Shown: positions 8,231-42,876 of the stretch, one piece after another
Numbering within the stretch: position 1 is the first letter of the stretch
Layout: every line of letters begins with the position of its first letter
Virus record (IMG/VR): IMGVR_UViG_3300043431_000467
Span: 1-43,730 of that record
DNA length: 43,730 nt
Strand: one strand, 5' to 3'
Source of the DNA: a virus
Position numbers and translations under genes: made by a program
Notes under the pieces: generated by a model
Databases searched by the model: none
What the model was told of the DNA's origin: nothing
What the model saw: only the letters and a program-made list of their open reading frames with translations

Positions 8231-9751
8231 ATGTACCTGCCAGACGATCCGACAGCCGACAGCGGCCAGTACACCGAAGGTACTCCAGGTTCCGTGCCGC
8301 CGACTCGCGTGCGCGCGGAGCATCTGAATGCGATTACAAACGAGCTCACGAACGCCATCGAAGCGTACGGGCTCACGCTCGACAAGAACGACTCGACGCA
8401 GCTCATGCAGCTGCTCGCCGAGATCGCGGTCTTGGCGGCCGGGCGGCTGACCGCCGGGCACGGAATCGACGCCACCGCAACCGACGCAAACGGCATCGGG
8501 CTGCACGGCACGGGCCTCGGCACGGGCACGGGCGTACGCGGCGACGGCGGCTCTACGGGGCCCGGCGGCATCTTCGACGGTAACGGCGGCGCAGCAGGCG
8601 CAACGGGCTTCGGTTCGAGTGCGGGGGCGGGGCTTGAGGGTACTGGCGGCTCCACAGGGCCGGGCATCAAGGGCACCGGCGGTTCGAGCTCCGGTCCTGG
8701 CGTCTACGGCATCGGCGGCGCGGGCGGGGACACCGGCGTCTACGGCCAAGGCACGGGCACGGACGCGGGTGGCGAGTTCTACGGCGGCACCGGCGGCGCG
8801 GCCGCGTGGGGCGTCTACGGACTCGGCAACGGTACGCGCGGCGGCGTGCGGGGCGAGGGCGGCGCAGTCTCAGGCCCCGGCGGAGAGTTCGTCGGTGGAG
8901 CATCGAACGGCGAAGGGCTGGTCAGTACCGGAACAGGCTCCGGCAACGGTGGCACGTTCACTGGTGGCTCGTCGAACGGCAAGGGCGTAAGCGGAACTGG
9001 CGTAGGCTCGGGGATTGGCGGGAACTTCGTTGGCGGTTCGACCGGTAAGGGTATCGTAGCGGCGGCCGGCGGGGGCAACACCATCGGCATCGATGGAACT
9101 GGAACCGGAACCGGTACCGGCACGGTAGGCCGAGGCGCCACGAGCACGGTCGGGATCGGCGTCGAAGGCTTCGGCGGTTCGAGCGGCGGTGTTGGCGTCA
9201 AGGGCACTGGTGCAGGTAACGGTCGCGGCGTGCTGGGCGTCGGTGTCGGGTCTGGTGCCGGCGTCTACGGGGATTGCAGCGGCGGCTCCGGACCTGGCGT
9301 AGCTGGTCTTGGCGCCAGCGGGCAGGCCGGCGGCGATTTCATCGGCGGCGGCAGCAGCGGCGCAGGGCTGGTAGGGCAAGGCGGCGCGAGTAACGGCATC
9401 GGCGTTCAGGGCACCGGAGATGGCTCGGGAGCCGGCGTCCAAGGCACCGGCGGAGACGGGAGCGCCCCTGGTGTTCTCGGCATCGGCGGTGCAAGTAACG
9501 GCATTGGCGTACGCGGTGAAGGTACGGGCACCGGCAGCGGCGTCTACGGGATCGGTACGGCCAGCGGCCCGGGTGTCAATGCGTCCAACGCCAGCGGCGG
9601 CCCGGCACTCTATGGCAGCGTGTCCGGCGGGGGCGCGGCGCTCCAGCTCGCATCGCAATCCACCCCATCCCCCCTCGTAAACGGCACTCTGTGGTACGAT
9701 GGCACGCACCTCTACGTTTGCATCGGAGGCAGCCCCGTTCAGCTTGACTGA
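8231..9751 (+). CDS. Tail fibre/adhesin with glycine-rich GxG repeats
   Basis: 506 codons, starting one base after the gp48 stop. Residues 1-75 look like a baseplate-attachment region (PPTRVRAEHLNAITNEL and DKNDSTQLMQLLAEIA, common at the N-terminus of fibre proteins downstream of gp48). Residues about 90-460 are a long run of GTGxGxGVxGxGG-type repeats with short inserts such as GGEFVGGASNGEGL. The last about 45 residues (TPSPLVNGTLWYDGTHLYVC) form the compact C-terminal tip found in many fibre proteins. The repeats could form a beta-solenoid or polyglycine-II bundle; this is inference. Likely receptor-binding. Confidence 0.7.
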   Translation: MYLPDDPTADSGQYTEGTPGSVPPTRVRAEHLNAITNELTNAIEAYGLTLDKNDSTQLMQLLAEIAVLAAGRLTAGHGIDATATDANGIGLHGTGLGTGTGVRGDGGSTGPGGIFDGNGGAAGATGFGSSAGAGLEGTGGSTGPGIKGTGGSSSGPGVYGIGGAGGDTGVYGQGTGTDAGGEFYGGTGGAAAWGVYGLGNGTRGGVRGEGGAVSGPGGEFVGGASNGEGLVSTGTGSGNGGTFTGGSSNGKGVSGTGVGSGIGGNFVGGSTGKGIVAAAGGGNTIGIDGTGTGTGTGTVGRGATSTVGIGVEGFGGSSGGVGVKGTGAGNGRGVLGVGVGSGAGVYGDCSGGSGPGVAGLGASGQAGGDFIGGGSSGAGLVGQGGASNGIGVQGTGDGSGAGVQGTGGDGSAPGVLGIGGASNGIGVRGEGTGTGSGVYGIGTASGPGVNASNASGGPALYGSVSGGGAALQLASQSTPSPLVNGTLWYDGTHLYVCIGGSPVQLD

Positions 9752-10032
9752 TGGCCGGACCGTACACAACCAGTCGCTACTCCGGGCGCCGCCGCGCGGC
9801 GGCGCCCGTGCGCATGCTTCAGGTGCGGGACGCGGCCCCTACAGCTGCGTCCGGATCGGAGGATCCGCTCGGCGGCGGGTCCGGCGGCGGTCTGCCGTCC
9901 GGATTGACGAGTCGATACTCCGGTGCGCGGCGGGCCGTGCCGACCATCAAAATGATCAGCCTGCAGCCGGCCCCGGTTCCTGTTGTCTCTGAGAGCACCC
10001 AATCTGATCCCCTTCCGGTGTTGTTTATATGA
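9751..10032 (+). CDS. Small unknown protein in the fibre cluster
   Basis: 93 codons; ATG shares a base with the fibre stop (TGATG). I do not recognise the family. It contains an internal duplication, TSRYSGRRRAA near the N-terminus and TSRYSGARRAV about 45 residues later, separated by a Gly/Ser-rich linker. Two Ser-Arg-Tyr-Ser-Gly-x-Arg-Arg units in so small a protein suggest a two-fold binding surface. Placement among fibre genes suggests a structural or assembly role. Confidence 0.6.
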   Translation: MAGPYTTSRYSGRRRAAAPVRMLQVRDAAPTAASGSEDPLGGGSGGGLPSGLTSRYSGARRAVPTIKMISLQPAPVPVVSESTQSDPLPVLFI

Positions 10033-10631
10033 CGGTCACAAAGTATAAAGATGCAGTCGACGTCACCCACGAATTTCAGCAGGAAGCGGGGGATAACGGC
10101 GGCTCAGAAGTACGTCCGGTTGCAGGGATGCCTAGTGCGGTGCGCGCGCAATTTACTGCGATGGCCGCGAGCCTGGTGGCGATCGACGCGAATACGAACA
10201 CGGTCGAAGCTCTGATCGGAACGACGAACTCGACGCTGTCTACGATCGATGGACGGGTAGACGGACTCGAAGCTCTGATCGGAACGACGAACTCGACGCT
10301 GTCTACGATCGACGGACGCGTAGACGGGCTTGAGGCTCTGATCGGAACGACGAACTCGAGCCTCGACCCCGGCACGTGCGTCACGAATCAGACGTCCAGC
10401 ACCACCACAAGTGCGGCGTTCTCCAGCCAGGCATGTACGCTCGGAGCCTGGGTCAAGAACATCTCGACCTCGAACCAGATCATCTACGTCAAGATGAACG
10501 CGACGGCCACCTCGGGCAACGGCTACCAGCTGACCGTAGGAGAAGAGCGATTCTTTCCGTGCGCGAACATGACCGAAATCAACCACATCGCATCCGCAAC
10601 CGGGGCTAACACGTGCTGGGAAGCGATCTGA
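10029..10631 (+). CDS. Fibre-like protein with a 21-residue coiled-coil repeat
   Basis: 200 codons, ATGA overlap with the preceding gene. Residues about 60-108 are two exact-length copies and a partial third copy of a 21-residue unit (EALIGTTNS, TLSTIDGRVDGL), i.e. three heptads per unit, coded by 63-bp DNA repeats at 10206-10361. Such I/L-heptad segments form trimeric coiled-coil shafts in phage fibres. The C-terminal about 90 residues (WVKNISTSNQIIYVKMNA, LTVGEERFFPCANM) look like a small beta domain at the tip. Function inferred as a tail fibre or adhesin. Confidence 0.65.
   Translation: MTVTKYKDAVDVTHEFQQEAGDNGGSEVRPVAGMPSAVRAQFTAMAASLVAIDANTNTVEALIGTTNSTLSTIDGRVDGLEALIGTTNSTLSTIDGRVDGLEALIGTTNSSLDPGTCVTNQTSSTTTSAAFSSQACTLGAWVKNISTSNQIIYVKMNATATSGNGYQLTVGEERFFPCANMTEINHIASATGANTCWEAI
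10206..10361 (+). repeat. 63-bp in-frame tandem repeat (2 full copies plus part)
   Basis: Copies begin at 10206, 10269 and 10332 (the third is cut short after about 30 bases). They are nearly identical at the DNA level and encode three heptads each, so copy number could change by recombination or slippage without breaking the frame. Confidence 0.85.
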
Positions 10632-12676: not shown

Positions 12677-13196
12677 CCCGTTCAAGTGGAAGGCCGCGCC
12701 CACCCCTTCCGATCCAGATCACGTAACGATCCTGGAGGGGTGGGACCGGCTGAACATTACGTCCTTCGCGTGCGAGGAACTTGCGCGCTGGACGCATGGC
12801 AAGAGCCGCATTGTGACGATGAACCACCAGTGTCGCGAGTCGTTTCTAGGTCTATGGGCCGCGTGGGAGAAAGACGGCGCGCTTGAGCGGTTCAAGTCCG
12901 ACTACACGCCAGCGCCGACCCGCGCGATTGTACACGACGGCTGGGCCGGAGCATACAACCCACGGTACAAGCGCGGCGTCGCACACGATCAGAACCCGAA
13001 CCACCTCAGCAACCATGCGAGCGGCCATGCGTTTGATATCGCCGCACAGCGCTACCCGCTCGGCCGCGAGATTCCCGGCCCGGATCTGATCCACCTTCTT
13101 GTTCCGATCGCCAAGTCCTACGGCTGGCGTTGGGGCGGCGAGTTCACGCGCCGCGATGGCATGCACTTCCAGCACGAAACGAGTCCATTCACATGA
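12651..13196 (+). CDS. Endolysin, peptidase M15-type
   Basis: 181 codons from TTG 12651, overlapping the lipoprotein gene by 26 bases; no better in-frame start was seen. The zinc-peptidase signature of M15 is clear: SNHASGHAFDI (the SxHxxGxAxD motif with His and Asp ligands, about residues 120-130) and DGMHFQ near the C-terminus with the third ligand His. Such enzymes cut peptide bonds in the peptidoglycan stem. No signal peptide is visible, so export would depend on a holin. It overlaps the next gene by ATGA. Confidence 0.8.
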   Translation: MPQSSNKPSPFKWKAAPTPSDPDHVTILEGWDRLNITSFACEELARWTHGKSRIVTMNHQCRESFLGLWAAWEKDGALERFKSDYTPAPTRAIVHDGWAGAYNPRYKRGVAHDQNPNHLSNHASGHAFDIAAQRYPLGREIPGPDLIHLLVPIAKSYGWRWGGEFTRRDGMHFQHETSPFT

Positions 13197-13609
13197 GCGC
13201 AACGACTACAGCCGCTACGGCGGTCATCGACGATATCGAAGCCCACACCGGCGGCGTAACTGCAAACGATCTGAACGTTGCGATGTCGCGCGTGGTTGTG
13301 GAGTTCGCTGAGTCGGGCGTGACTGCTAGCGAGTCCGGTGGTGCGACCGGCGCCGCAACCGCCGTAGCGATGACCACCGCAAGCGCTACGCTTATCGCGG
13401 CGAACGCTAGCCGAGTCGGACTCATGATCTACAACCCATTGGCGGTAACGCTGTACGTGCGTTTCGAGAATGCGGACGCGGCTACTGTTCAGTCCTTTTG
13501 GGTTCTGCCCGGCGAGACGTACGAGATGCCTCGTCGATACTACACCGGGATCGTGAAGGCTGCAACCGCCTCCAGCTCCGGCAGCGTCTTTGTCACGGAG
13601 ATCGTGTAA
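13193..13609 (+). CDS. Small phage structural protein (unknown, beta-rich)
   Basis: 138 codons from ATG 13193 (ATGA overlap with the endolysin). The C-terminal half, with ATLIAANASRVGLMIYNPLA, LYVRFENADA and YEMPRRYYTGIVKA, has the pattern of small beta-rich phage proteins whose strands read as 'nANRxGLxIYN...LYV...YExPxxYTG'. Their exact role is not established; they occur among tail or head decoration genes. Placed after the lysis genes and before a glycine-rich protein. Confidence 0.6.
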   Translation: MSATTTAATAVIDDIEAHTGGVTANDLNVAMSRVVVEFAESGVTASESGGATGAATAVAMTTASATLIAANASRVGLMIYNPLAVTLYVRFENADAATVQSFWVLPGETYEMPRRYYTGIVKAATASSSGSVFVTEIV

Positions 13610-14631
13610 TGCCTATTCATGCTCCTCGCGGGCCCGCGCGCATCGTCGATCACTACGACACCGCCGGCACCACGGCCGTCACGACACGTACGGGCTATCA
13701 AGTTGTTGAGCTACTGCTACGTCCCGGCGCCCAAGGCGGAGGAGGAGGCGGGGGCGGAGGTATCGGCCAAACATCTGCTACGGGCGGGGGAGGCGGAGGA
13801 GCGGGTAACGGTGGCGGTGGCGGTGGGGCCTCTATGCTGCGTGTGCCCTGCTCGATCGCACCGGGCACCGTGCTCACTCTGGTGCGCGGTGCGGGGGGCA
13901 CGGGTGGTGCGGGGGGTACGTCGGGCGCCAACAATTCTGTGGCGGGGTCTGTCGGGTCCCCGTCGTATGTGACGACACAAGCTGGAGTCCACATCGCGAA
14001 GACCGCGGGCCTTGTAACTATAGCCGGCAACGGGGGGAACAAAGGCAACAACGCATCTGCGGGCAACGGGGGTACCGCAGGTAGCGGGCAGTCTCTTACA
14101 GCAGCTAACACGCGACACTTTGGCCTGAACCTCCCGAACGCTGACGTTACCGGCAACGCAGGAGGGGCAGGGGGCGCAAGCAGCAACCCCGGCAATTCGC
14201 CCACTACGCCAAATCTACCAACCGGGGCCGTTCTCGCCTTCCCGTCCACCTACGCCACTGTCCCGAGCAACGCAGCGGGTGGTGCCGCAGACACCACCGC
14301 GGGCGGGGGCGGGGCCGGGGCATCCGGAGGTACCGGCGGACCCGGAGATGAAGTCGACTACGGCCTCGGAATCGCTCCGCTGACTGGTGCCGGTTCCGGT
14401 GTGGGTGGCGCTGGCGGCGCTGGCGGCGCTGGCTCTGTAGCAGGCACTGGCACGACGGGCTCGAACGGCAGTAATGGCGCGACTGGGTCCCACGGCAGAG
14501 GCGGTGGCGGTGGCGGTGGCGCGGGCGGCGGTGGCGCTGGGCTTTCCGCGGGCGGGGCAGGTGGTGTTGGCGGCACAGGCGGCGACGGCAGCCCAGGCTA
14601 CATCGGCCTGGTCTACGCGCGCCTGAGCTGA
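13609..14631 (+). CDS. Glycine-rich tail fibre-like protein
   Basis: 340 codons from ATG 13609, sharing a base with the preceding TAA. After about 35 residues (TGYQVVELLLRPGAQ) there are long poly-glycine tracts, a short GTVLTLVRGAGGTGG strand, and further GGxGGxGG runs to the end, closing with a YIGLVYARLS strand. This is the architecture of Gly_rich-type phage tail proteins, in which glycine tracts form polyglycine-II sandwiches bearing receptor-binding loops. It is the last gene of the plus-strand late operon and overlaps the opposing array gene by 19 bases. Confidence 0.6.
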   Translation: MPIHAPRGPARIVDHYDTAGTTAVTTRTGYQVVELLLRPGAQGGGGGGGGGIGQTSATGGGGGGAGNGGGGGGASMLRVPCSIAPGTVLTLVRGAGGTGGAGGTSGANNSVAGSVGSPSYVTTQAGVHIAKTAGLVTIAGNGGNKGNNASAGNGGTAGSGQSLTAANTRHFGLNLPNADVTGNAGGAGGASSNPGNSPTTPNLPTGAVLAFPSTYATVPSNAAGGAADTTAGGGGAGASGGTGGPGDEVDYGLGIAPLTGAGSGVGGAGGAGGAGSVAGTGTTGSNGSNGATGSHGRGGGGGGGAGGGGAGLSAGGAGGVGGTGGDGSPGYIGLVYARLS

Positions 14632-14786
14632 TCCCGGAGCGGATCGCAGAGCTGGTCGTAGAGCTGGTCGCAGAGCTGGGCGTCGAGCTGGGCGGAGAGC
14701 TGGTAGTAGATCTGGCGATCGAGCGGGGCCCAGAGCTGGCGATCGAGCTGGGCCCAGAGCTGGTAGAGTGGTTTGTCAGGATTCAT
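14613..14786 (-). CDS. QL-repeat micro-protein, left array gene 1 (distal)
   Basis: 57 codons. From ATG 14786 the protein is built almost entirely of a four-residue repeat: PLYQLWAQLDRQLWAPL, then YYQLSAQLDAQLCDQL and further DQL units to RDQLRRA. Repeating CAG-CTC codons give a 12-base DNA periodicity. It starts inside the end of the neighbouring member and is convergent with the glycine-rich protein gene. No family recognised. Confidence 0.65.
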   Translation of the reverse strand: MNPDKPLYQLWAQLDRQLWAPLDRQIYYQLSAQLDAQLCDQLYDQLCDPLRDQLRRA

Positions 14787-14943
14787 GGTTGTGCGCTGCG
14801 CAGAGCTGATTGCGCGTCTGAGTGTACAGCTGCCAGTAGAACTGCCGGTAGAGCTCGGCGTAGATTTGGGCGTTGAGCTCGGCGGAGAGCTGGCGCACGA
14901 GCCGGGCACAGAAGAGCTGTTGGCGTGATCGGTCAGGGTTCAT
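14776..14943 (-). CDS. QL-repeat micro-protein, left array gene 2
   Basis: 55 codons from ATG 14943, which overlaps the stop of the upstream member (ATGA). It begins MNPDRSRQQLF and continues with more degenerate units (RQLSAELNAQIYAELYRQF, WQLYTQTRNQL), ending CAAHNHES. It shares the MNPD start with its downstream neighbour but lacks the LREQ ending; its last 11 bases overlap that neighbour. Confidence 0.6.
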   Translation of the reverse strand: MNPDRSRQQLFCARLVRQLSAELNAQIYAELYRQFYWQLYTQTRNQLCAAHNHES

Positions 14944-15113
14944 GGCTGTTCTCGGAGCTGGACCGTCAGCTTGATGTATATTTCAGCGCCTAGCGCCCAG
15001 TCGAAGTGACTGTATAGCTCGTCGCGCAAACGCCAATGCAACTGCTGTTGAAACTGGGCGTGCAGCCGATCCTCGAATCCGCCGCATGCAGCTGTGGCTC
15101 TGAAGCGCTTCAC
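14940..15113 (-). CDS. QL-repeat family micro-protein, left array gene 3 (diverged)
   Basis: 57 codons if started at GTG 15113, chosen because it overlaps the upstream stop as GTGA and gives the family's usual length. The repeat is weak (DRLHAQFQQQLHWRL, DELYSHFDWAL), but the protein ends in LTVQLREQP, the signature shared with right-array members, and its end codes the conserved junction CTCCGAGAACAGCCATGA. Confidence 0.55.
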   Translation of the reverse strand: MKRFRATAACGGFEDRLHAQFQQQLHWRLRDELYSHFDWALGAEIYIKLTVQLREQP

Positions 15114-15289
15114 GTCGACACCCACTTCAGGTAGAACGACTCGCGTCCGCACCAGAGAATCCGCTGAGCGATGAGTTTTCCAGGCATCCCGCCCGAGAAA
15201 ATACAACGAACGGTTTCGCTCGACAGGTGGCGTTCGATCGCTCGTCGCAGCCTGCGTTGCCTGTTCGCTTTACGTTTTCGGTTCGTCAT
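15110..15289 (-). CDS. Small basic protein within the left array
   Basis: 59 codons from ATG 15289 to TGA 15112-15110. The N-terminus is very basic (TNRKRKANRQRRLRRAIE), which could bind nucleic acid; the rest (CIFSGGMPGKLIAQRILWCG) has no repeat. It overlaps genes on both sides (20 and 4 bases), which supports translation. Family unknown. Confidence 0.5.
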   Translation of the reverse strand: MTNRKRKANRQRRLRRAIERHLSSETVRCIFSGGMPGKLIAQRILWCGRESFYLKWVST

Positions 15290-15446
15290 GCTGTAGTGCC
15301 TGGAGCAAGGGACTGTAAAACTCCAGAAATAGTTGATTCCCTACGCTGGTATGCATCTCGTCGAACAGCCGCTGATTTATGCGGGGGTCGGCAGCATAGT
15401 GGATATCTAGTCCCATCTGCGTCCGTAGCAATTCAGGTTCGCGCAT
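15270..15446 (-). CDS. Small protein in the left array, possible diverged family member
   Basis: 58 codons from ATG 15446 to TAA 15272-15270; its start lies inside the last codons of the neighbouring repeat gene. The sequence (LLRTQMGLDIHYAADP, NQRLFDEMHTSVGNQLF, FYSPLLQALQ) has no clean QL repeat but keeps the N-Q-L and Q-A-L spacing seen in diverged members. Membership is inferred from length and position. Confidence 0.5.
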   Translation of the reverse strand: MREPELLRTQMGLDIHYAADPRINQRLFDEMHTSVGNQLFLEFYSPLLQALQHDEPKT

Positions 15447-15624
15447 GGCGTAGCTGGTCGTCGAGCTGGGCGTAGAGCTGGTCGTAGAGCTGGCCGAAGA
15501 GCTGGGTCCAGAACTGGGCGTGGAGCTGGGCGTAGAGCTGGTCGTCGAGCTGGGCGTGGAGCTGGGCGTAGAGCTGATCCCAGACCGGCTCGTTGAGCTG
15601 GCGGGCGAGCCGGTCTGGGATCAT
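15433..15624 (-). CDS. QL-repeat micro-protein, left array gene 6
   Basis: 63 codons from ATG 15624, overlapping the upstream stop (ATGA). After MIPDRLARQLNEPVW the protein is a nearly perfect tetrad repeat: DQLYAQLHAQLDDQL, YAQLHAQFWTQLFGQL, YDQLYAQLDDQL, ending RHART. A longer open frame reaches back to 15846, but that part is the antisense or other-frame shadow of the neighbouring genes. Confidence 0.7.
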   Translation of the reverse strand: MIPDRLARQLNEPVWDQLYAQLHAQLDDQLYAQLHAQFWTQLFGQLYDQLYAQLDDQLRHART

Positions 15625-15782
15625 CGCCGTTCTCGGAGCTGATCGTGCAGCGGTGTCCAGCTGCACACCCAGCGCGGGGCGAGTAGTTGGGTGTGGAGCT
15701 GGGGGCGAAGCTGGTCGTCGAGCCGGCAGAGCCGGGCGTCGAGCTGGACCCAGAAATCGCGGTAGCGCTCGTGCGCGTTCAT
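15621..15782 (-). CDS. QL-repeat micro-protein, left array gene 7 (promoter-proximal)
   Basis: 53 codons from ATG 15782 to TGA 15623-15621. Starts MNAHERYRDFW like right-array members (MNAH), then VQLDARLCRLDDQLRPQL, a non-repeat middle, and the family ending HDQLRERR. Its ATG overlaps the stop of the metallopeptidase-like lipoprotein gene, so it is translationally coupled to that gene. Confidence 0.65.
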   Translation of the reverse strand: MNAHERYRDFWVQLDARLCRLDDQLRPQLHTQLLAPRWVCSWTPLHDQLRERR

Positions 15783-17569: not shown

Positions 17570-18258
17570 CGCACCGCCTTGTTCTTGATCTTGACGACTT
17601 CCGTGATCACGACACCCGGGATTTCAATCTTGCCCTTGTAGGCATCGGCCTGGGCCTGGATGAGTGCCGTGTTCACAACCTTGGTCCAGTATGCCTCGGG
17701 GATCAGTGAGATGTCAACAATTCGAATCTCGTAATCGACCTCTTCGCGTGACGTTTCTGGAAGCTCGAGCCGTTGCCCCCCGTGCGCTACGAAAAGTGTG
17801 TCTTTGTCGCCCTGCCCGCCACTGTCCTCGATGGCTTTGAGCGCCGCGAGTTCGGCGGCGCGGATGACGGCACGTGCGTCGGCCTGCAACCGCTTGCAGA
17901 CGTCTTCGATCTTCTGCCAGAACTCGGCGACCGGCTTGCACAAGTTGTCGATACGCCGGCCCGCCTCGAGGGCGGGCTCTTTCAGATGCTTGCGTAGCGT
18001 CTCGATCTCTTTGCGCTGGTCGAACGCCTCGCGTTGCAGCTCGCCGACCAGGTCCATCGACTCCTGATCCTCGATGACGAACTCGGCCAGAATCTGCAGG
18101 CGCTCGCGCCCGGCCTGTTCCCAGATCTGGAGCTGGGATAGCGCCTCCTCCGGCGCCTCGACCGAGGTCTTGCCCGGCTTCGAGGCTTTGCGGGCACGCT
18201 TCTTCGGCGTCTCGGGTACCAGTTCAGCTTTCACTTCTTGTTCTTGTTCTTCGGTCAT
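17566..18258 (-). CDS. Phage coiled-coil protein, recombination/replication-associated type
   Basis: 230 codons from ATG 18258. A basic, low-complexity N-terminus (TPKKRARKASKPGKT) is followed by a long coiled coil (residues about 55-140: ESMDLVGELQREAFDQR, then KPVAEFWQKIEDVCKRL) and a C-terminal region with VDYEIRIVDISLIPEAYW and KIEIPGVVITEV. The IPxxY...IPGV ending recurs in phage proteins encoded near single-strand annealing or nuclease genes, whose function I cannot state. No catalytic motif was seen. Confidence 0.55.
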   Translation of the reverse strand: MTEEQEQEVKAELVPETPKKRARKASKPGKTSVEAPEEALSQLQIWEQAGRERLQILAEFVIEDQESMDLVGELQREAFDQRKEIETLRKHLKEPALEAGRRIDNLCKPVAEFWQKIEDVCKRLQADARAVIRAAELAALKAIEDSGGQGDKDTLFVAHGGQRLELPETSREEVDYEIRIVDISLIPEAYWTKVVNTALIQAQADAYKGKIEIPGVVITEVVKIKNKAVR

Positions 18259-29497: not shown

Positions 29498-31798
29498 TCA
29501 GTTTGCCCCGGCGCTCAGGAAGGCGCCGCCTTGGCTTACAATAGCTTCCAGTTCCGCAAGTGTCAACTCCCAAGAGTTCTCTTGGCCCCACTGTGCGAGA
29601 TCTTCGAGCGACACCGCATAGAGCCCGCGCTGCTTGCGCGTGCCGAGCTCCTTCATCACGTTCGCAATGGCGGGCAAGGAGAGTTGGCGCTCTTTGTCGA
29701 GGTAGCGCGCATACTTGTCGTAGATGAACCGCGGGTTGATCAGCAGCTCCCCCCGCCCGAGCACGAACATTTGCCCGGCGCCCTCGTTCGCGAGGTGCGG
29801 AGCGTGCAAGAACGACATCAGCCACTGGCACACAAGACTGCGATCGCGGCTGGCGATGCGCATGTGCCGGTGAAGCTCCGAGTCGCGCCCCTGCACCCAG
29901 AGCCGGTCGTTCTGTTTGCTCTCGACAACGCGGTTCTCCTCGAGCCACAGAATGTACTGTGCCAGACGCGCGGGTGGGAAGAACGGGGCTCGGCTCGGTG
30001 GCAGCCGGTAGAACAGCAAGCGCTCGCAGATGGCGTCGACGTCATCGCGGCCGACAGTCTCAGACGAGTTGTTGAACAAGTGCAGGTTGTTCATGGCGAA
30101 CACGAACCGCAGTGATCCTTCCATCTTGCTCGTGGGCAGGAACTTGCGGTTCAGGGTGATGGTGCGGGCGGCCACGAGTTGGCGCAGCTTGCCGCTGTCC
30201 TTGCGGAAGCGCTCAGGGACGGTGTCGTCGGCCAGAACCACAGGGCACTCCATGAGCGCGTCGTTGAACGACTCGCCGAGGCTATCCATGTCGGTGGGCG
30301 GGGCGCCCCAGATCGCAGCAATCCCCTCCGCAAGCATGGTTTTGCCGACGCCTGGGGCGCCGCAGAGGTAAAGTGCGGCTGTAGCTTTGTCGAGCTTCGG
30401 GGCCGTGGCGAGCCAGTCAAGGAGTGTGTCATCCCCCCACGATCGCAGCCACGCGTCGATCTCGTAGTCGTAGTTCGGGACGAGATCCAGACGTCGCGGC
30501 GCGATGGCGTACGTCAGGATGTGCCCGTTCACGGTGCTGGTTCGGGCCGAAAGGCTCGCGCGAACGATGTCGACTGCGCGGCCGTAGTCCTGGAGCAGGG
30601 TCTTGAGAGTGCGGTTGTGGACGTCCCCATCTTTGTTGACCTTGCGAAGCTGCAACTTGAATGGCTGTTCTGCGGGCAGCAGCTTCTGAAACGCCGACGT
30701 CTCGCCCGAGTCGATCGTGCCTACGTTGACGTAGTTCCCCTCATAGAACACGTACAGACTGTTCTGGTGGCGGACGAGCAGCTGCTTCTGTAGGTAGTCC
30801 GGTTTCGGAACGCCCTGCTCGACGCAGAAGGTAGACAGATCGTCGATGTTGTACGGCCCTTCGCGCCCGAGCTGGTACATGCGGATGGGGTCCTCCCCCA
30901 TCAACTTCTCGGTGATTTCTCTGCGGGCGCGCTCGAGCTTCTCGGTGAATGTGGTGCCGTCTGAGTGGCGGCAGCCCGGCAGATGGAGCTGCGGCATGCA
31001 GACTTCAACTATGGTCGCGTTCTCGAGCCCCTGCGCGCGGCGCGCGATGAAGGTGGCGCAAGCGTAGAGCGCTTCGTCGCGCTGGCCTTGTTCGGCGTAG
31101 GGGCCGTGTGTCTGTGCGAGCAGGCGCTGCAAGGTGGCGCGGCCGAGTACCGCCCACTCGCCGCGAGCGGAAGCTTGAGACATCTGCTCGAGTCGCTTGC
31201 GTGTCTCTTCGTGGTTCAGGCTCTGGACCACGACGCCGTTCTGCGGCTGCGTGGACTTGAGAACCTCATCAACATCCAGGGGATCAGAACCCCCCGACTT
31301 AGCCTCGAATTGTGCCGCCCCCTCAATCTGCACAGGCCAGTAGTACAGTCGGACTGGATCTTTACACTTCTGGTCGTTCGTCGAGGCAGCCAAGGTCTGC
31401 GCCATGATTGCCCAGAAGTCGGCCCACTCCCGCACGAGAACGTTGCGCGAGAGGCGCAACACGAGTCGGTAGCGCAACTGACCGTCGACCGGAACGTGGC
31501 GCCGGGTGGAGTAGTAGATGTACTGAAGTCCCCACTCTTCCACCTTATTCAGAACATCCAACCATTCCTTGGTTTTCAGGTTGTCGAAGTCCAGAACCAG
31601 ACATGAGAGCGAGATGACATCGGTGCTCGCTCTGTTGCCCTGCGCGAGTGTTGCAGGGATCCACGCCTCGAGATTGAACCCCCTCTGGTCGAACGATTTT
31701 GTCTTGGGGGTGGCGGTCAGCAGTTCGGCGAGTTGCTCCCATGTCAGATCCTGGGCGACTGCTGAAGCAGCATGGTGTTCGAGTCGCTGGATGCGCAT
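29498..31798 (-). CDS. Primase-helicase fusion (AEP-like primase plus VapE/D5-type helicase)
   Basis: 766 codons from ATG 31798, which follows an AAAGAAAGAG stretch; a TTG at 31828 is the alternative. The N-terminal 200 residues have LSCLVLDFDN and YYSTRRHVPVDGQLRYRLVL, then EWADFWAIMAQTLA, a pattern of primase-polymerase-like modules of phage origin. The C-terminal part is a VapE/DUF5906 superfamily 3-like ATPase: GAPGVGKTMLAEG (P-loop, about residue 481), CPVVLADDT (Walker B, about 519), and FVFAMNNLHLF (sensor). It is probably the replication initiator or helicase-primase. Confidence 0.8.
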   Translation of the reverse strand: MRIQRLEHHAASAVAQDLTWEQLAELLTATPKTKSFDQRGFNLEAWIPATLAQGNRASTDVISLSCLVLDFDNLKTKEWLDVLNKVEEWGLQYIYYSTRRHVPVDGQLRYRLVLRLSRNVLVREWADFWAIMAQTLAASTNDQKCKDPVRLYYWPVQIEGAAQFEAKSGGSDPLDVDEVLKSTQPQNGVVVQSLNHEETRKRLEQMSQASARGEWAVLGRATLQRLLAQTHGPYAEQGQRDEALYACATFIARRAQGLENATIVEVCMPQLHLPGCRHSDGTTFTEKLERARREITEKLMGEDPIRMYQLGREGPYNIDDLSTFCVEQGVPKPDYLQKQLLVRHQNSLYVFYEGNYVNVGTIDSGETSAFQKLLPAEQPFKLQLRKVNKDGDVHNRTLKTLLQDYGRAVDIVRASLSARTSTVNGHILTYAIAPRRLDLVPNYDYEIDAWLRSWGDDTLLDWLATAPKLDKATAALYLCGAPGVGKTMLAEGIAAIWGAPPTDMDSLGESFNDALMECPVVLADDTVPERFRKDSGKLRQLVAARTITLNRKFLPTSKMEGSLRFVFAMNNLHLFNNSSETVGRDDVDAICERLLFYRLPPSRAPFFPPARLAQYILWLEENRVVESKQNDRLWVQGRDSELHRHMRIASRDRSLVCQWLMSFLHAPHLANEGAGQMFVLGRGELLINPRFIYDKYARYLDKERQLSLPAIANVMKELGTRKQRGLYAVSLEDLAQWGQENSWELTLAELEAIVSQGGAFLSAGAN

Positions 31799-32768: not shown

Positions 32769-32819
32769 AGCTGGGTGCTTGTGCTGTGGCTCTGTGACTG
32801 GTGCAACCTTAGGTAGACC

Positions 32820-32930
32820 TTCGTAGTAAACCTTCGTAGTAAACCTTCGTAGTAAACCTTCGTAGTAAACCTTCGTAGTAAACCTTCGTAGTAAACCTTC
32901 GTAGTAAACCTTCGTAGTAAACCTTCGTAC
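32820..32930. repeat. 13-bp tandem repeat, eight perfect copies plus seven bases (iterons)
   Basis: Unit TTCGTAGTAAACC on the plus strand, copies starting at 32820, 32833, 32846, 32859, 32872, 32885, 32898 and 32911, then TTCGTAC. Thirteen bases is not a codon multiple, so the array is non-coding. Iterated AT-richer repeats beside replication genes are typical of origins that bind an initiator. Confidence 0.8.
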
Positions 32931-32959: not shown

Positions 32960-33082
32960 ACATGTGGTGTCCTGTAGGTGGTGCACCTACATGTGGTGTC
33001 CTGTAGGTGGTACACCTACATGTGGTGTCCTGTAGGTGGTACACCTACATATGGTGTCCTGTAGGTGGTGCGCCTACATGTG
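32960..33082. repeat. 29-bp tandem repeat, four copies with internal dyad
   Basis: Copies begin at 32960, 32989, 33018 and 33047, with a partial fifth (ACATGTG). Each junction forms the inverted repeat TGTAGGTG-(3)-CACCTACA. Copies differ at one or two positions (GTGCACC, GTACACC). The dyad is the same core as the palindromes at 38843-38864 and 38907-38934. Confidence 0.8.
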
Positions 33083-38546: not shown

Positions 38547-38842
38547 TCTGCGCCTACGCTTAGGCGATGAGCGTAAAAGACACACGTCGGGGGGAGTCGG
38601 GGGTGTAAGGTCTTTCCCAGCATTCGTGTACGCACCTACATCCGGCACCAGTACCGGGACAAGTGAGCGTATGTAGTACGTGTGTACGGGAGTAGTTGGC
38701 ACGCGCGTATGCGGTACGTAGTAGTTGGCATGGTACGTATGTAGTACACATGCCACGTGTAGTTGGCATGCAGATGTAGTCTACATGTAGTTGGCATGCA
38801 CCAGTGCCGGTGCTACACCTACATGTGGGGCTAGCGGTGGCG

Positions 38843-38864
38843 CTACACCTACATGTAGGTGTAG
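38843..38864. repeat. 22-bp perfect palindrome CTACACCTACA/TGTAGGTGTAG
   Basis: Centre between 38853 and 38854. Followed by GTGCGCTCGAGCTGGGCTAG, the same sequence that follows the second palindrome 67 bases on. Confidence 0.75.
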
Positions 38865-38906
38865 TGCGCTCGAGCTGGGCTAGTGCCAGACCTGTGCGTA
38901 GGGGTG

Positions 38907-38934
38907 GCACTACACCTACATGTAGGTGTAGTGC
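38907..38934. repeat. 28-bp perfect palindrome, second copy
   Basis: Extends the core of the first to GCACTACACCTACA and its complement. Core CACCTACA/TGTAGGTG also forms the dyads of the 29-bp repeats at 32960-33082. Confidence 0.75.
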
Positions 38935-39078
38935 GCTCGAGCTGGGCTAGTACCATATGTGGGATGGTGTGTGCGGTGTATGCCCCCGGGCCTGGGTGTG
39001 GGGGTGGGTGTGGGACTGCGCACATGTCAGATGTGCAGAAATTTTTTTTGAAAAATTCACCAATCCCAGCCCTAGACC

Positions 39079-39113: not shown

Positions 39114-39284
39114 ATGCTACTTTCCGACGCCTGGCAGCTCTACGCCCAGCTCTACGCCCAGCTCCACACCCAGCTCTCCGTCCAGCTCTACGGCCAGCTC
39201 TACGGCCAGCGCCACGCCCTCTCCGTCCAGCTCTACGGCCAGCTCTACGACCAGCTCAACGCCCAGCTCCTAAAACAGCCATGA
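39114..39284 (+). CDS. QL-repeat micro-protein, right array gene 1
   Basis: 56 codons from ATG 39114. After LLSDAW it is a run of four-residue units: QLYAQLYAQLHTQLSVQL, YGQLYGQRHALSVQLYG, QLYDQLNAQLLKQP. CAGCTC codons dominate. No ribosome site; the upstream promoter geometry suggests a leaderless mRNA. It overlaps gene 2 by ATGA. Confidence 0.7.
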   Translation: MLLSDAWQLYAQLYAQLHTQLSVQLYGQLYGQRHALSVQLYGQLYDQLNAQLLKQP

Positions 39285-39460
39285 ACCTATTCGCCCAGAA
39301 CCTAAGAATGATAAGAGTTCTAGCCGAACGGCTAGATCCTGATAATTTGTACTGGGAGCTGCACCATCAAGTCGATCTGCCGCTGTGTGATGTACTGTAC
39401 AGGCGACTCTACCATGAACTGTATTTTTCGATCGAGGATCAGCTCCGAGAACAGCGATGA
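39281..39460 (+). CDS. Diverged QL-family micro-protein, right array gene 2
   Basis: 59 codons. NLFAQNLRMIRVLAERLD, LYWELHHQVDLPLCDVLY, RRLYHELYFSIEDQLREQR. The tetrad spacing survives in places but the DNA is not repetitive, so this member shows protein-level divergence under apparent constraint. Shares the LREQ ending. Confidence 0.7.
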   Translation: MNLFAQNLRMIRVLAERLDPDNLYWELHHQVDLPLCDVLYRRLYHELYFSIEDQLREQR

Positions 39461-39624
39461 ACGCGCACCAACTCGACGACCAGCTCTTCGACCAGCTCGG
39501 CGCCCAACTCCACGCCCAGCTCCGCACCCATCTCTCCAACCAGCTTCTCTACGCCCAGCTCTACGCCCAGCTCTACTCCCAACTCCACGCCCAGCTCCAC
39601 GCCGGGCTCCGAGAACAGACATGA
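39457..39624 (+). CDS. QL-repeat micro-protein, right array gene 3
   Basis: 55 codons. NAHQLDDQLFDQLGAQLHAQ, LRTHLSNQLLYAQLYAQ, LYSQLHAQLHAGLREQT. MNAH start is shared with gene 6 and with the proximal gene of the left array. Confidence 0.7.
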   Translation: MNAHQLDDQLFDQLGAQLHAQLRTHLSNQLLYAQLYAQLYSQLHAQLHAGLREQT

Positions 39625-39729
39625 ACACAAGTCAGCTCCACGCCCAGCTCTCCGCCCAGCTCGACGCCCAGCTCCACGCCCAGCTCTGGGCCCAGCTCTA
39701 CGCCGAGCTCTACGCCCAACTCTACGCCC
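39591..39729 (+). repeat. 139-bp duplication, copy 1
   Basis: Matches 40086-40224 with two mismatches by my reading (within 39651-39653). Spans the end of gene 3 and the first half of gene 4. Confidence 0.85.
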
Positions 39730-39809
39730 AACTCTACGACCAGCTCCACGACCAGCTCTACGCCCAGCTCCACGACCAGCTCTGCGATCAGCTCCGAGAA
39801 CAGCCATGA
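39621..39809 (+). CDS. QL-repeat micro-protein, right array gene 4
   Basis: 62 codons, the most regular member: NTSQLHAQLSAQLDAQLHAQ, LWAQLYAELYAQLYAQL, YDQLHDQLYAQLHDQL, ending LREQP. Its first half is a near copy of gene 7 (139-base duplication). Confidence 0.72.
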   Translation: MNTSQLHAQLSAQLDAQLHAQLWAQLYAELYAQLYAQLYDQLHDQLYAQLHDQLCDQLREQP

Positions 39810-39934
39810 ATACAGACAAGCTCTGCGCCCGGCTCGACGGCCAGCTCTACGCCCAGCTCTACGCCCAGCTCTCCGCCCGGCTCGCCGACCAGCTCTACGC
39901 CCGGCTCGCCGACCAGCTCCGAGAACAGCCATGA
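39806..39934 (+). CDS. QL-repeat micro-protein, right array gene 5
   Basis: 42 codons, the shortest. NTDKLCARLDGQLYAQLYAQ, LSARLADQLYARLADQL, REQP. ATGA overlaps on both sides. Confidence 0.68.
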   Translation: MNTDKLCARLDGQLYAQLYAQLSARLADQLYARLADQLREQP

Positions 39935-40119
39935 ACGCGCACCGGCTCGAAGCCCAACTCTGCAACCTGCTCGAAGTCGAGCTCGCGATCGAACTCTCTT
40001 GGCGGATTCACGTCGAACTCTGGGCCAAGCTCTGCCCGCAACTCTATGACGAGCACGGCGCCCAACTGCGCGCCCAGCTCGAGGTCCAGCTCCACGCCGG
40101 GCTCCGAGAACAGACATGA
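39931..40119 (+). CDS. Diverged QL-family micro-protein, right array gene 6
   Basis: 62 codons. NAHRLEAQLCNLLEVELA, IELSWRIHVELWAKLCPQLY, then AQLRAQLEVQLHAGLREQT. The centre is diverged, the ends keep the family pattern. Confidence 0.68.
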   Translation: MNAHRLEAQLCNLLEVELAIELSWRIHVELWAKLCPQLYDEHGAQLRAQLEVQLHAGLREQT

Positions 40120-40224
40120 ACACAAGTCAGCTCCACGCCCAGCTCGACGCCCAGCTCGACGCCCAGCTCCACGCCCAGCTCTGGGCCCAGCTCTACGCCG
40201 AGCTCTACGCCCAACTCTACGCCC
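40086..40224 (+). repeat. 139-bp duplication, copy 2
   Basis: Same as 39591-39729, offset 495 bases; spans the end of gene 6 and the first half of gene 7, so genes 4-6 look like a duplicated block boundary. Confidence 0.85.
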
Positions 40225-40316
40225 GGCTCTGGGCCCAGTTCTACGAACATCTCAGTAATTTCTACTACCCCACCGTCGAGTTCCGCCAACCCCCAATCGT
40301 TGCACGCCGCGCTTGA
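40116..40316 (+). CDS. QL-repeat micro-protein, right array gene 7
   Basis: 66 codons. Begins as gene 4 (NTSQLHAQLDAQLDAQ), then LWAQFYEHLSNFYYP and a non-repeat end REFRQP-like tail (VEFRQPPIVARRA). It lacks LREQ because its 3' part runs antisense into the large terminase gene for 65 bases; perhaps a truncated copy. Confidence 0.65.
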   Translation: MNTSQLHAQLDAQLDAQLHAQLWAQLYAELYAQLYARLWAQFYEHLSNFYYPTVEFRQPPIVARRA

Positions 40317-42876
40317 GCTGCTCTTTCTTGCTGAGCAGCTGCACAGCCAACCGAGGGTCCTGCAAGACCTCGTCGGGGTACTTCGTCTCCACCTTGATGA
40401 AATCAAACGAGGGGATCGGGTTCTCGAGCAGGTATCTGTACGCTCCGGCGAGCGCCGAAACTGCATCATCCTTCGATTTCGGGTCCGGAAACCCTTCGAG
40501 TTGGTTGAAAAACTGCGTATTCCACGGACGTTCGAGGTAGTGAAGCTCTCCTCTAAAAGCCGCCTTACTGGCCTCGCGGGCGTGCCAGTCCTTGTTTTGC
40601 GTGTCCATCACGACACACGGCGCAAACCGGCGAATATCCGTCGCCAGGCGCTCAGCTTGATCGTCGCCCGCCTGCCCCGGATCCCGGAAAATCACCACTG
40701 TCGTGCGCGGCCCGTCTTGCTGCGCGCAGCGCAACTGCAACGCTTGCACCGCCCCCGGAGAGTCTCGATGGAACGTCGCGTCCGGAATCACGATTCTCCC
40801 GTTGCGTGTCCGGTCCAGCTTTACGCTGACCGTCCAGTCCGGGTTGTCGAGCTTGCCGTCGCGCGCTTTGAAGCTCTCCGGGCGAATCACCCCCGGAATC
40901 AGTTCGCCCTCTATCGGCGTCGAAGCGGTATCCCAGCATCTCACGGACTGCACGATATCCGCTGCGCGCCCCTCCTGCGACAAGAGCACGCGCTCGAGGT
41001 CCGTCTGCCCCCAAACCTTGAACGCGACCTTCTGGAAGAAGTCCCCAACCCCCTGTCTGACGTTCCAATTCCCCCCGAGGTACCTGTCGCGCTCGACCGC
41101 AGTCATAGACTTGAGGTTCGCGAGGTACTCCGGATCCTTGTCCATCAGGATCTGGTTGTCCGACAACAAGCTCGGGATGAACGTCAACGACATAACAGAG
41201 CGGGGGTCGTTCTCTACGTAGCGCAGCAACTCCTCGGGCGTAGCCGCCCAAACGATCTCGTCCTTGACCCGGACGTAGTGCCGCACCACCCCCGCCCGCG
41301 ACATGATTGGGTACCCGTCCTCGCCGATCCACCAGTCGATCAGTGACCGCAAGTAGCAGTCGGGATCAGGGTTTGTCGTGACCGCAACCTGACGCGGAAC
41401 GTTCGCCATACCTCGAAGGCGGCTGATGATGAAGAAAAACTGCTTTCCTTCGAACTCCGAGCCCTCGTCAAGCCCGATGTAGTCGTACTGCTTAGACTTG
41501 TGCGAGACAGCGTCCTTCTCGTGCTGCATGTGCTTGAGCTCGACTCGCGCGCGCGAGCCGTCGAAGACCCATTCAGAGCGGTTCTGATTGAACTTCCCGC
41601 CCAAGTCCGGGTAGAAGTTCCGTGTCTCGTCGAGCAACGAGCCGCCACCTTCGAGCATCTTGAACGTGCGCCGGAAGATGATCGCGTTGTAGCCCTTGAT
41701 GTGACTGTACTTTGCTGCCCTCCAAGCCTGGTACCACGAGTTATGGGTAGGTATGCAGGCGCGAGAGATCAAGTAGGTATGATCGGGGGAGTCGACCGCA
41801 ATGCACATCATAGACCCGGGATCTACTACCCTCTCGGCCGCTACTATGTAGTGATAGTTCTGGGTCTTGCGACGACGGGGCTGCCAAGCAGCTAGTTTGC
41901 GTGGGAGGCGGCACGGCTGAAACGCCGGAGTGAAGTACACAGACCACTTAGGTCCGCAGTCCTTGCCGTAGAGCGATGCGCGGCCCTCGCAGATAGTAGG
42001 TTTCGCCCCTAGACTGGCCGCCAGCCAATAGACTGCATCCGCCAGTTTTTTATTGGTGTTGCAGAATTCGACACGCCCGCCCTTACCCTTTTCGACATGC
42101 CCGTCGGTGTCTATCAGCCCTTGGAGCAGAGCTAGGCGCTGCCCTGCCGACGCGAGCAGGTACGGCTCCGGTACGTGTTTGACCCCCAATACTCCTAAGT
42201 CACGAAGGGTCGAGGTCAGCTTTAGTATCGTTCCCTGCTTGAACGGCTTTTGTGGGTCCCTCTGGCGAAGGCTTCCGAGAGTCCAACCCTCCCGCTCCCA
42301 CGCCTGCCAGAGTTCGGGGTCCTCGCTGCTGTAGTCGCCAGCATCGGTGTTTCCGTCTCCTAGCCACAGTCCAAGAAGATAAGGGGCCAGCGGCAGCTTC
42401 ACTTCTGATAGCTCCAGCTGTGCGCACACCGGCACTGCATGATTCGTGCGCCGGGCTTTACGGCCCGGGACCAGAAGCGTGTCCGCGATCTCTTGCGTGG
42501 TGCGCACTTGCGGCTCCGGCACACGGCCGCGCCTCGCCCCTGCCTTGCGTTCGGCGTCCGTGCACGTAACCCATTGATGCTCCGCGCAAGCCTGGATGAC
42601 TTCTCCGTTGTCGAAGGTCAACCGAAAGACCACGGATGGGGTCTGAACGTCGGAGCACCACAGAACAGAGCATGTGCGCCCGTCGCGCCCGAGGACCAGA
42701 TCCCCCGGTTTTAGGGTGCCGATGGCTCGGGGACCTTGAGGGGTCTGGACTTCCTGTGAGATCGGCAGGGCCTTGCCCCCGCCCGCACCCCCTCCGAATA
42801 CTAGGATACGTGCCTTGCTCTTGGCCGCCATCATCTGCGGGCCCGGCTGCGGCTTGATGATGCGCGTCTCACTCAT
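40252..42876 (-). CDS. terL: Terminase large subunit interrupted by an intein
   Basis: 874 codons; removing the 344-residue intein leaves 530, a usual size for TerL. Walker A is GGGAGGGK (residues 28-35) followed by the intein and then S380. Walker B is YDYIGLDEG (Asp 470, Glu 471). The nuclease domain shows VRCWDTAS, FRDPGQAGDDQA and KSKDDAVSALAGAY, with the acidic residues of the RNase H-like fold. TerL packages DNA into the prohead and cuts it. The gene overlaps terS by 8 bases and its 3' end overlaps the opposing array gene. Confidence 0.93.
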   Translation of the reverse strand: MSETRIIKPQPGPQMMAAKSKARILVFGGGAGGGKALPISQEVQTPQGPRAIGTLKPGDLVLGRDGRTCSVLWCSDVQTPSVVFRLTFDNGEVIQACAEHQWVTCTDAERKAGARRGRVPEPQVRTTQEIADTLLVPGRKARRTNHAVPVCAQLELSEVKLPLAPYLLGLWLGDGNTDAGDYSSEDPELWQAWEREGWTLGSLRQRDPQKPFKQGTILKLTSTLRDLGVLGVKHVPEPYLLASAGQRLALLQGLIDTDGHVEKGKGGRVEFCNTNKKLADAVYWLAASLGAKPTICEGRASLYGKDCGPKWSVYFTPAFQPCRLPRKLAAWQPRRRKTQNYHYIVAAERVVDPGSMMCIAVDSPDHTYLISRACIPTHNSWYQAWRAAKYSHIKGYNAIIFRRTFKMLEGGGSLLDETRNFYPDLGGKFNQNRSEWVFDGSRARVELKHMQHEKDAVSHKSKQYDYIGLDEGSEFEGKQFFFIISRLRGMANVPRQVAVTTNPDPDCYLRSLIDWWIGEDGYPIMSRAGVVRHYVRVKDEIVWAATPEELLRYVENDPRSVMSLTFIPSLLSDNQILMDKDPEYLANLKSMTAVERDRYLGGNWNVRQGVGDFFQKVAFKVWGQTDLERVLLSQEGRAADIVQSVRCWDTASTPIEGELIPGVIRPESFKARDGKLDNPDWTVSVKLDRTRNGRIVIPDATFHRDSPGAVQALQLRCAQQDGPRTTVVIFRDPGQAGDDQAERLATDIRRFAPCVVMDTQNKDWHAREASKAAFRGELHYLERPWNTQFFNQLEGFPDPKSKDDAVSALAGAYRYLLENPIPSFDFIKVETKYPDEVLQDPRLAVQLLSKKEQLKRGVQRLGVGGTRRWGSRNY
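41740..42771 (-). mobile_element. Class 3 intein with LAGLIDADG endonuclease in the TerL P-loop
   Basis: 344 residues, precursor 36-379. It starts with Ala (ALPISQEVQTPQG), not Cys or Ser, and ends CIPTHN before Ser +1. The class 3 W-C-T set is present: Trp 67 in EHQW, Cys 323 in MMCIAVDSPD, Thr 342 in PTHN. Endonuclease motifs are LLGLWLGDG (Asp 139) and LLQGLIDTDG (Asp 223). Class 3 inteins begin splicing from the block F Cys. Both endonuclease motifs look intact, so homing may be active. Confidence 0.9.

Follow-up and report, generated by a model that had tools for sequence, protein, structure and literature searches.

Arrays of tiny overlapping phage genes built on a four-residue repeat (a tetrad) are a real, recurrent and undescribed phage gene family, with a period of four kept at the protein level, an array layout, and two diversifying residues per unit. 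We describe them from a stretch of viral DNA of 43,730 nt, called the window below, and from other phages. Their structural and evolutionary picture is fairly secure; their functional role is a guess.

A viral-contig search found a second record, IMGVR_UViG_3300044806_000206 (L012), whose overlaps with the two window ends are 99 to 100% identical: window 43495..43730 matches L012 14387-14152, and window 1-846 matches L012 846-1. Because the overlap is at both ends, the two records make up a single circular genome of about 57 kb. This phage has a Mu-like portal, terminase, tape measure and baseplate hub genes, and a polymerase. L012 apart, a portal search of IMG/VR returned no close relative, and a terminase-based search matched intein-bearing relatives only; the terminase large subunit of the window (40252-42876, minus strand) itself carries an intein-like insert inside its Walker A motif (GGAGGGK-[ALPISQEV...ACIPTHN]-S). 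Rfam and tRNA scans came back empty. Repeats of other kinds are present as well: a 13-bp repeat (GTAAACCTTCGTA) in nine near-perfect copies and a 29-bp repeat in four copies, at 32813-32929 and 32960-33082, and a 63-bp tandem repeat (10204-10359, 2.5 copies) within a predicted gene at 10029-10631.

Array A consists of seven plus-strand ORFs, at 39114..39284, 39281..39460, 39457..39624, 39621..39809, 39806..39934, 39931..40119 and 40116..40316, with 56, 59, 55, 62, 42, 62 and 66 codons (as many amino acids). The preliminary description had placed and measured them correctly, and all six junctions are, as it had them, ATGA overlaps. The window was shuffled 100 times under a first-order Markov model; of the chains of ORFs of 30 to 115 aa linked by exact xTGA overlaps, the longest then held three ORFs in 54 runs, four in 40 and five in 6, so that a chain of seven is beyond chance. 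Two other xTGA chains, of six ORFs each, start near 17676 and 36498 on the minus strand; unrelated to the tetrad arrays, they are apparently ordinary phage operons or chance frames, and from them we take overlap coupling to be common in this phage. Tandem Repeats Finder gives the 12-bp unit of array A as CAGCTCTACGCC, that is Q-L-Y-A. Since a GC-rich 12-bp repeat, its period a multiple of three, opens other frames too (long ALRP and STPS ORFs are open here), open frames alone are weak evidence; the case for array A is carried by its junctions and its divergent members, not by frame openness.

Within array A, gene 1 reads MLLSDAWQLYAQL...LLKQP. Gene 2 (g2) is without the DNA repeat and has nine hydrophobic residues consecutively at a spacing of four (residues 23-55, p=0.0005). 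Genes 3 and 6 end in LREQT, genes 4 and 5 in LREQP; gene 4 (g4) holds 14 consecutive tetrads. The last gene, gene 7 (g7), starts as a near-copy of gene 4 and overlaps the 3' end of the oppositely oriented terminase gene. Upstream of the array, an AT-richer stretch (38640-38960) with recurring GTAGTTGGCATG and CTACACCTACATGTAGGTGTAG (inverted-repeat) motifs possibly has a regulatory role.

A protein search of the window revealed a second seven-ORF array, B (15782-14613, minus strand), which the earlier description had missed. Its members are m1 (15621..15782, 53 aa, MNAHERYR...LRERR), with weak periodicity; m2 (15433..15624, 63 aa), with 15 consecutive tetrads; m3 (15270..15446, 58 aa), without the DNA repeat and with period-4 hydrophobic residues (L7 M11 I15 (A19) I23 L27 M31 V35 L39 F43 L47 L51; p=0.0005); m4 (15110..15289, 59 aa, MTNRKRK start), whose tetrad periodicity is not significant and whose membership of the family is uncertain; m5 (14940..15113, 57 aa), with a GTG start, 11 consecutive tetrads with L, F or I, and a C-terminal LREQP; m6 (14776..14943, 55 aa), made of tetrads and running 11 nt into m7; and m7 (14613..14786, 57 aa), the last, with 12 tetrads and no LREQ ending. 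Two further arrays lie on L012: C (9649-10308), of four genes, and D (13055-14075), which begins on the stop codon of a dUTPase-like gene and contains a zinc-ribbon-like ORF. Among contigs with QL arrays, L012 was the sole match to the junction pattern TCCGAGAACAGNNATGAA.

The gene endings had been read as a sign of selection on the protein. They are as first given (LREQ followed by P, T or R in five genes of array A, LLKQP in gene 1, no such ending in gene 7), but the reading is not supported, the LREQ ending being restricted to genes that have another gene downstream. Over arrays A to D an ending of LREQ type is found in 12 of 17 non-last genes versus none of 5 last genes (Fisher p ~0.01, on our own count). 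As last genes lack it, we regard this ending as a junction for starting the next gene rather than as a protein signature. Two other array phages, L067 and L068, have endings of their own, REEFNND with AGGGAAGA upstream of the next ATG in the former and YKGIKYYEE with TATAAAGG just upstream of the next start in the latter, and in both the last gene is again without the corresponding ending, or has an altered one. Judged from their placement, these gene-end sequences look like junctions needed to start the next gene. That they serve ribosome binding in the window phage is only a suggestion, because its junctions carry no strong Shine-Dalgarno motif.

Selection on the protein, and not on a bare minisatellite, is borne out by another line of evidence: members that are free of the DNA repeat retain a hydrophobic residue at each fourth position. 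The DNA repeat was said to be lost from two genes of array A, which is true of the gene at 39281; the one at 39931 still shows in-phase tetrads, in which E, R, K or L stands in place of Q. With array B included, the members without the repeat are g2, m3 and m5. In shuffle tests, the longest hydrophobic run at spacing four had p ~0.0005 or less in g2, m3, m5 and m6; there was no period-4 pattern in m4 and a weak one in m1 and d1. Pooling these four, the most divergent members in the window, we counted 38 hydrophobic pairs at lag 4 versus 17.5 expected (2.2-fold), 34 versus 16.2 at lag 8 and 32 versus 14.9 at lag 12, and 10 versus 17.8 (0.6-fold) at lag 3. In the divergent set (g2, m3, m5 and d1), the second base of the L-slot codon is kept, being T in 72% of units, a figure that is partly so by construction since the hydrophobic residues set the phase (the shuffle tests allow for the choice of phase); the bases flanking this T are near random (C 34% and C 22%). 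Between the near-copies g4 and g7, all eight of the eight differing codons are nonsynonymous. Against selection on the protein, frames are broken despite a persisting DNA repeat in one case, two copies of array D (L012, ~13797-13925). At that place a one-base frame shift makes the ATG frame translate the ALRP repeat onward into the next tetrad gene.

The same architecture is present in at least three phages beyond the window phage, L067, L068 and L115. Using as query gp38 of the Mycobacterium prophage prophiGD102-1, the sole public phage relative of the repeat, we obtained 26 viral loci; in most of them the tetrads lie within one DUF6745-like ORF, and at four (L067 and L068/L069/L070) they form stand-alone arrays. 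L115 was added by a broad DNA pattern scan, among the matches listed, and a single scan of genome contigs gave no further match. In 198 genomes of Actinomycetota, the only phylum covered, the tetrad micro-protein family was not found. When the retrieved loci other than those of the window phage were scanned blind for runs of small linked ORFs showing a lag-4 and lag-8 signal, the L067, L068 and L115 phages were the only ones returned.

L115 has a run of about 30 tandem micro-genes of 56 to 82 aa with M[KRIV]KR starts and mostly 4-nt overlaps. One of them is a perfect-repeat gene, and 29 of the 30 recovered micro-genes are without the DNA repeat. These 29 have 308 hydrophobic pairs at lag 4 versus 179.5 +/- 9.2 in shuffles (14 SD; none of 5000 shuffles reached 308), and lags 8 and 12 are enriched as well. 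The preliminary description had held that leucine at every fourth residue is no classical heptad coiled coil, and the lag profile agrees: lags 3, 7 and 11 are depleted (ratios of 0.70 to 0.73 in L115) and lags 4, 8 and 12 enriched (1.57 to 1.72), with the divergent window members alike. The slots of the L115 proteins (L/V/I, then R/Y, D/N and Q/E/N) are filled as in the perfect tetrads. When 16 of the L115 proteins without the repeat were made into a profile, it matched the arrays of the window (9.3e-9), L012 (2.9e-10), L067 (4e-11) and L068 (1.5e-14), and none of five control phage contigs; part of this cross-phage match may be due to shared periodic composition.

Other occurrences of the repeat are of a different kind. 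A solitary tetrad micro-gene (MKKRKQLWDKL...YKGMKHYYEEA) lies at 30718-30882 of G202 (IMGVR 3300044940_000489); the main array of this phage is some 37 kb away. Matches on plasmids of Hymenobacter, Vibrio and Alteromonas were discarded as arrays, being isolated repeats, two of them near parA, and so was a Thermoactinospora match (L037), where an MFS gene begins with the repeat. Many viral contigs begin or end within tetrad repeats (L053, L056, L057, L062/L065, L066, L070, L111, L117 and L126, among others), so that such repeats break assemblies and are probably under-recorded.

Variation within the unit is narrowly confined. Cis tetrads, those inside larger proteins, were compared among phages that are otherwise only 35 to 50% identical. 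Little or no change is seen at ten of the twelve positions of the unit, even at silent ones; the entropy lies in the first base of x (NGG, for W, G or R), with ~1.5 bits, and in y at its second base (GAC/GGC, for D or G), with ~0.9 bits. Other phages obey the same restriction with other alphabets (S or N together with Y/D/N/R/G; in MW202476, x-S-S-L), and in nearly every family the entropy of the unit is limited to the x and y positions. Stand-alone arrays are likewise nearly fixed at the Q and L codons and vary at x and y. The unit sequence itself differs among phages (CAGCTC, CAGTTG, AGCCTC). Number and order of units also change: gp38, L046, L047 and L048 have 45, 61, 18 and at least 20 tetrads (the last a lower bound set by the contig end), in different order between identical flanks (0 to 1 mismatch over up to 897 nt), differences that could include errors of repeat assembly. 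The four mycobacterial prophage arrays (L011 7684-9129, L046, L047 and L048) are all made from the same six exact 12-mers. A diversity-generating retroelement was considered as the source of variation and ruled out for want of a reverse transcriptase (PF00078), found in none of 13 records, several of them fragments.

AlphaFold2 models g4 as a single helix of 57 residues (pLDDT 96), and gives G-rich cis tetrads a confidence of 40 to 50; the program tends towards helix for such sequences. Since an exact period of four makes the hydrophobic stripe drift round an ordinary alpha helix, an unusual helix packing or a different fold is suggested. Foldseek with the g4 model returned nothing, and PDB sequence searches using family profiles gave no credible match.

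What might such arrays do for the phage? The explanation that we consider best, and to which we give about an even chance as a whole, is that they encode translationally coupled, diversifying helical binders that interfere with the host, perhaps together with DUF6745. In the unit Q-L-x-y, the Q and L slots are conserved and x and y vary; each micro-protein would be one rod-like helix whose Q/L stripe packs on itself or on a partner and whose x/y face binds. Recombination among 12-bp units and among cassettes would generate the copies, and one transcript could then yield several related binders that differ in surface. We would guess that these interfere with host proteins, in counter-defence or takeover, probably together with the repeat-less DUF6745 protein encoded beside array C, to which they would supply in trans the tetrad segment that other DUF6745 proteins carry in cis. 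That this amounts to a new system, in which coupled period-4 helical micro-proteins, alone or with DUF6745, constitute a rapidly evolving combinatorial repertoire for recognition or counter-defence, constantly reshuffled as 12-bp units recombine, is a tentative proposal, for which we would expect the odds to be somewhat unfavourable.

The place of DUF6745 deserves attention. Array C stops 72 nt before a repeat-less gene (L012 10380-11318) that matches Pfam DUF6745 (PF20530) at 1.2e-30. Of the three array phages known from long contigs, two have a gene of this type without tetrads, the window phage and the L070 phage, in the latter far from the array. Otherwise the domain is rare, with none of 41 viral contigs (L115 among them) having it and 2 of 50,697 phage records matched by tblastn. 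The protein most closely related to that of L012 (48% identity) has cis tetrads at the matching place, as have other viral homologues; in all, over 20 phages have DUF6745 proteins with internal tetrads, and bacterial DUF6745 proteins are often without them. The tetrad unit and its variable slots are common to the window, L067 and L068 arrays and the cis DUF6745 proteins, and PF20530 matched none of the micro-proteins. One DUF6745-type gene (L076 3770-4516) has apparently lost the first part of the domain, its tetrads leading directly into the C-terminal part. A structure model of DUF6745 had no convincing match in the PDB. A partnership between DUF6745 and the arrays is suggestive. DUF6745 is not a constant partner, however, as it was not found in the 65.7-kb L115 contig.

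These observations bear on a narrower explanation, that the micro-proteins are nothing but trans-supplied subunits of DUF6745, a split tetrad-repeat protein without a target of its own. The 72-nt spacing of array C, the cis tetrads of the homologues at the matching place and the second repeat-less DUF6745 gene, in the L070 phage, all speak for it. We nevertheless think it unlikely, given an array of about 30 genes on a contig without DUF6745, the distance of arrays A, B and D from the DUF6745 gene, and several bacterial DUF6745 proteins that have no tetrads at all.

Mimicry is another candidate: the micro-proteins might imitate the tetrapeptide-repeat helix of HsdS and so keep type I restriction enzymes from assembling or from recognising DNA. 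The TAEL repeats of HsdS are indeed helix-coding 12-bp repeats (PMC3874165), and the PADLOC model Specificity_I is matched in its central part by 7 of 21 members from the window phage (best 3.9e-8), the only PADLOC result and one that we take as an analogy. The match is probably one of AQL/AEL composition, however, as an L068 member and m3 of the window are unmatched, and the proteins contain no target recognition domain and, with E up to 10 allowed, match no Methylase_S model in Pfam. We consider this mimicry distinctly improbable.

A little lower again we rate the possibility of a translated minisatellite, in which selfish or neutral 12-bp repeats sit between genes and the proteins are by-products, their frames kept open by a period divisible by three. 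DNA homogeneity within arrays is strong, four intergenic sites are occupied in one phage, and array D has its frame-shifted copies. A minisatellite would change over all positions of the unit and leave the frame unprotected; this is not the pattern found, with the two frame-shifted copies as the exception. The protein period persists in repeat-free members, starts and overlaps are regular over some 30 L115 genes, and unrelated phages share the slot composition; given the L115 array, the minisatellite reading is already disfavoured.

The repeats might instead act as DNA, as signals for recombination, packaging or replication, with coding secondary; the near-constant silent sites of cis tetrads across phages would fit, as would the position of array A against the terminase gene and of the L067 array after a terminase-like gene, but divergent members retain the protein pattern only and the unit sequence is unlike between phages, which makes this very improbable. 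Equally improbable is a structural role as filament or scaffold, in the virion or in a compartment of the infected cell, since the predicted rod-like helix and the many near-identical copies are offset by differing array number and position and by a variable face unexpected in a pure scaffold.

Diversifying coupled binders thus being the reading we prefer, the family would be an unnamed one, of strict four-residue period and up to about 30 tiny overlapping genes per array, that gene callers and family libraries have missed. It raises a structural question, which fold has an exact period of four, and two evolutionary ones, how fixed silent sites go with two varying residues per unit and how arrays come to differ among otherwise identical prophages. 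If the micro-proteins are true variable binders, their targets would expose an undescribed host-phage conflict.

The view that no phage system of this kind had been described agrees with our searches of family databases and of the open-access literature: no family in Pfam, PHROG, NCBIfam or the PDB covers the micro-proteins, and the literature yielded nothing about DUF6745 or these repeats. Several known systems are comparable in part. In type IC HsdS subunits (EcoR124I/EcoR124II), the TAEL repeat is coded by 12 bp, makes just over one helical turn and sets the spacing of domains, and changes of its copy number have an effect (PMC3874165, PMC10030836). The arrays share with it the 12-bp DNA repeat, a four-residue unit that in the arrays is predicted to be helical, and the leucine at every fourth residue. 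In HsdS, however, two or three copies serve as a spacer in a protein with two target recognition domains, whereas the array proteins, of 42 to 66 aa and without such domains, are repeats throughout, with dozens of units and variable residues; the absence of a recognition domain makes this a likeness, not membership. Pentapeptide-repeat proteins likewise have a short strict repeat with one hydrophobic residue per unit, and some of them (Qnr, MfpA) protect bacterial enzymes; their period is five, A(D/N)LXX, in contrast to the period of four found here, where lag 5 has a ratio of 0.79 (L115) and Pfam gives no match. Diversity-generating retroelements resemble the arrays in the targeted-looking variation at few codon positions, but here the variation is between repeat units and not relative to a template. 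TAL and PPR proteins are repeat-coded binders, a logic comparable to that of the proposed repertoire. DUF6745 proteins of the prophiGD102-1 gp38 type have the same 12-bp-coded [x][y]QL unit and variable slots; in those the tetrads form one long segment of a large protein, whereas in the arrays they make up separate overlapping genes without a DUF6745 domain.
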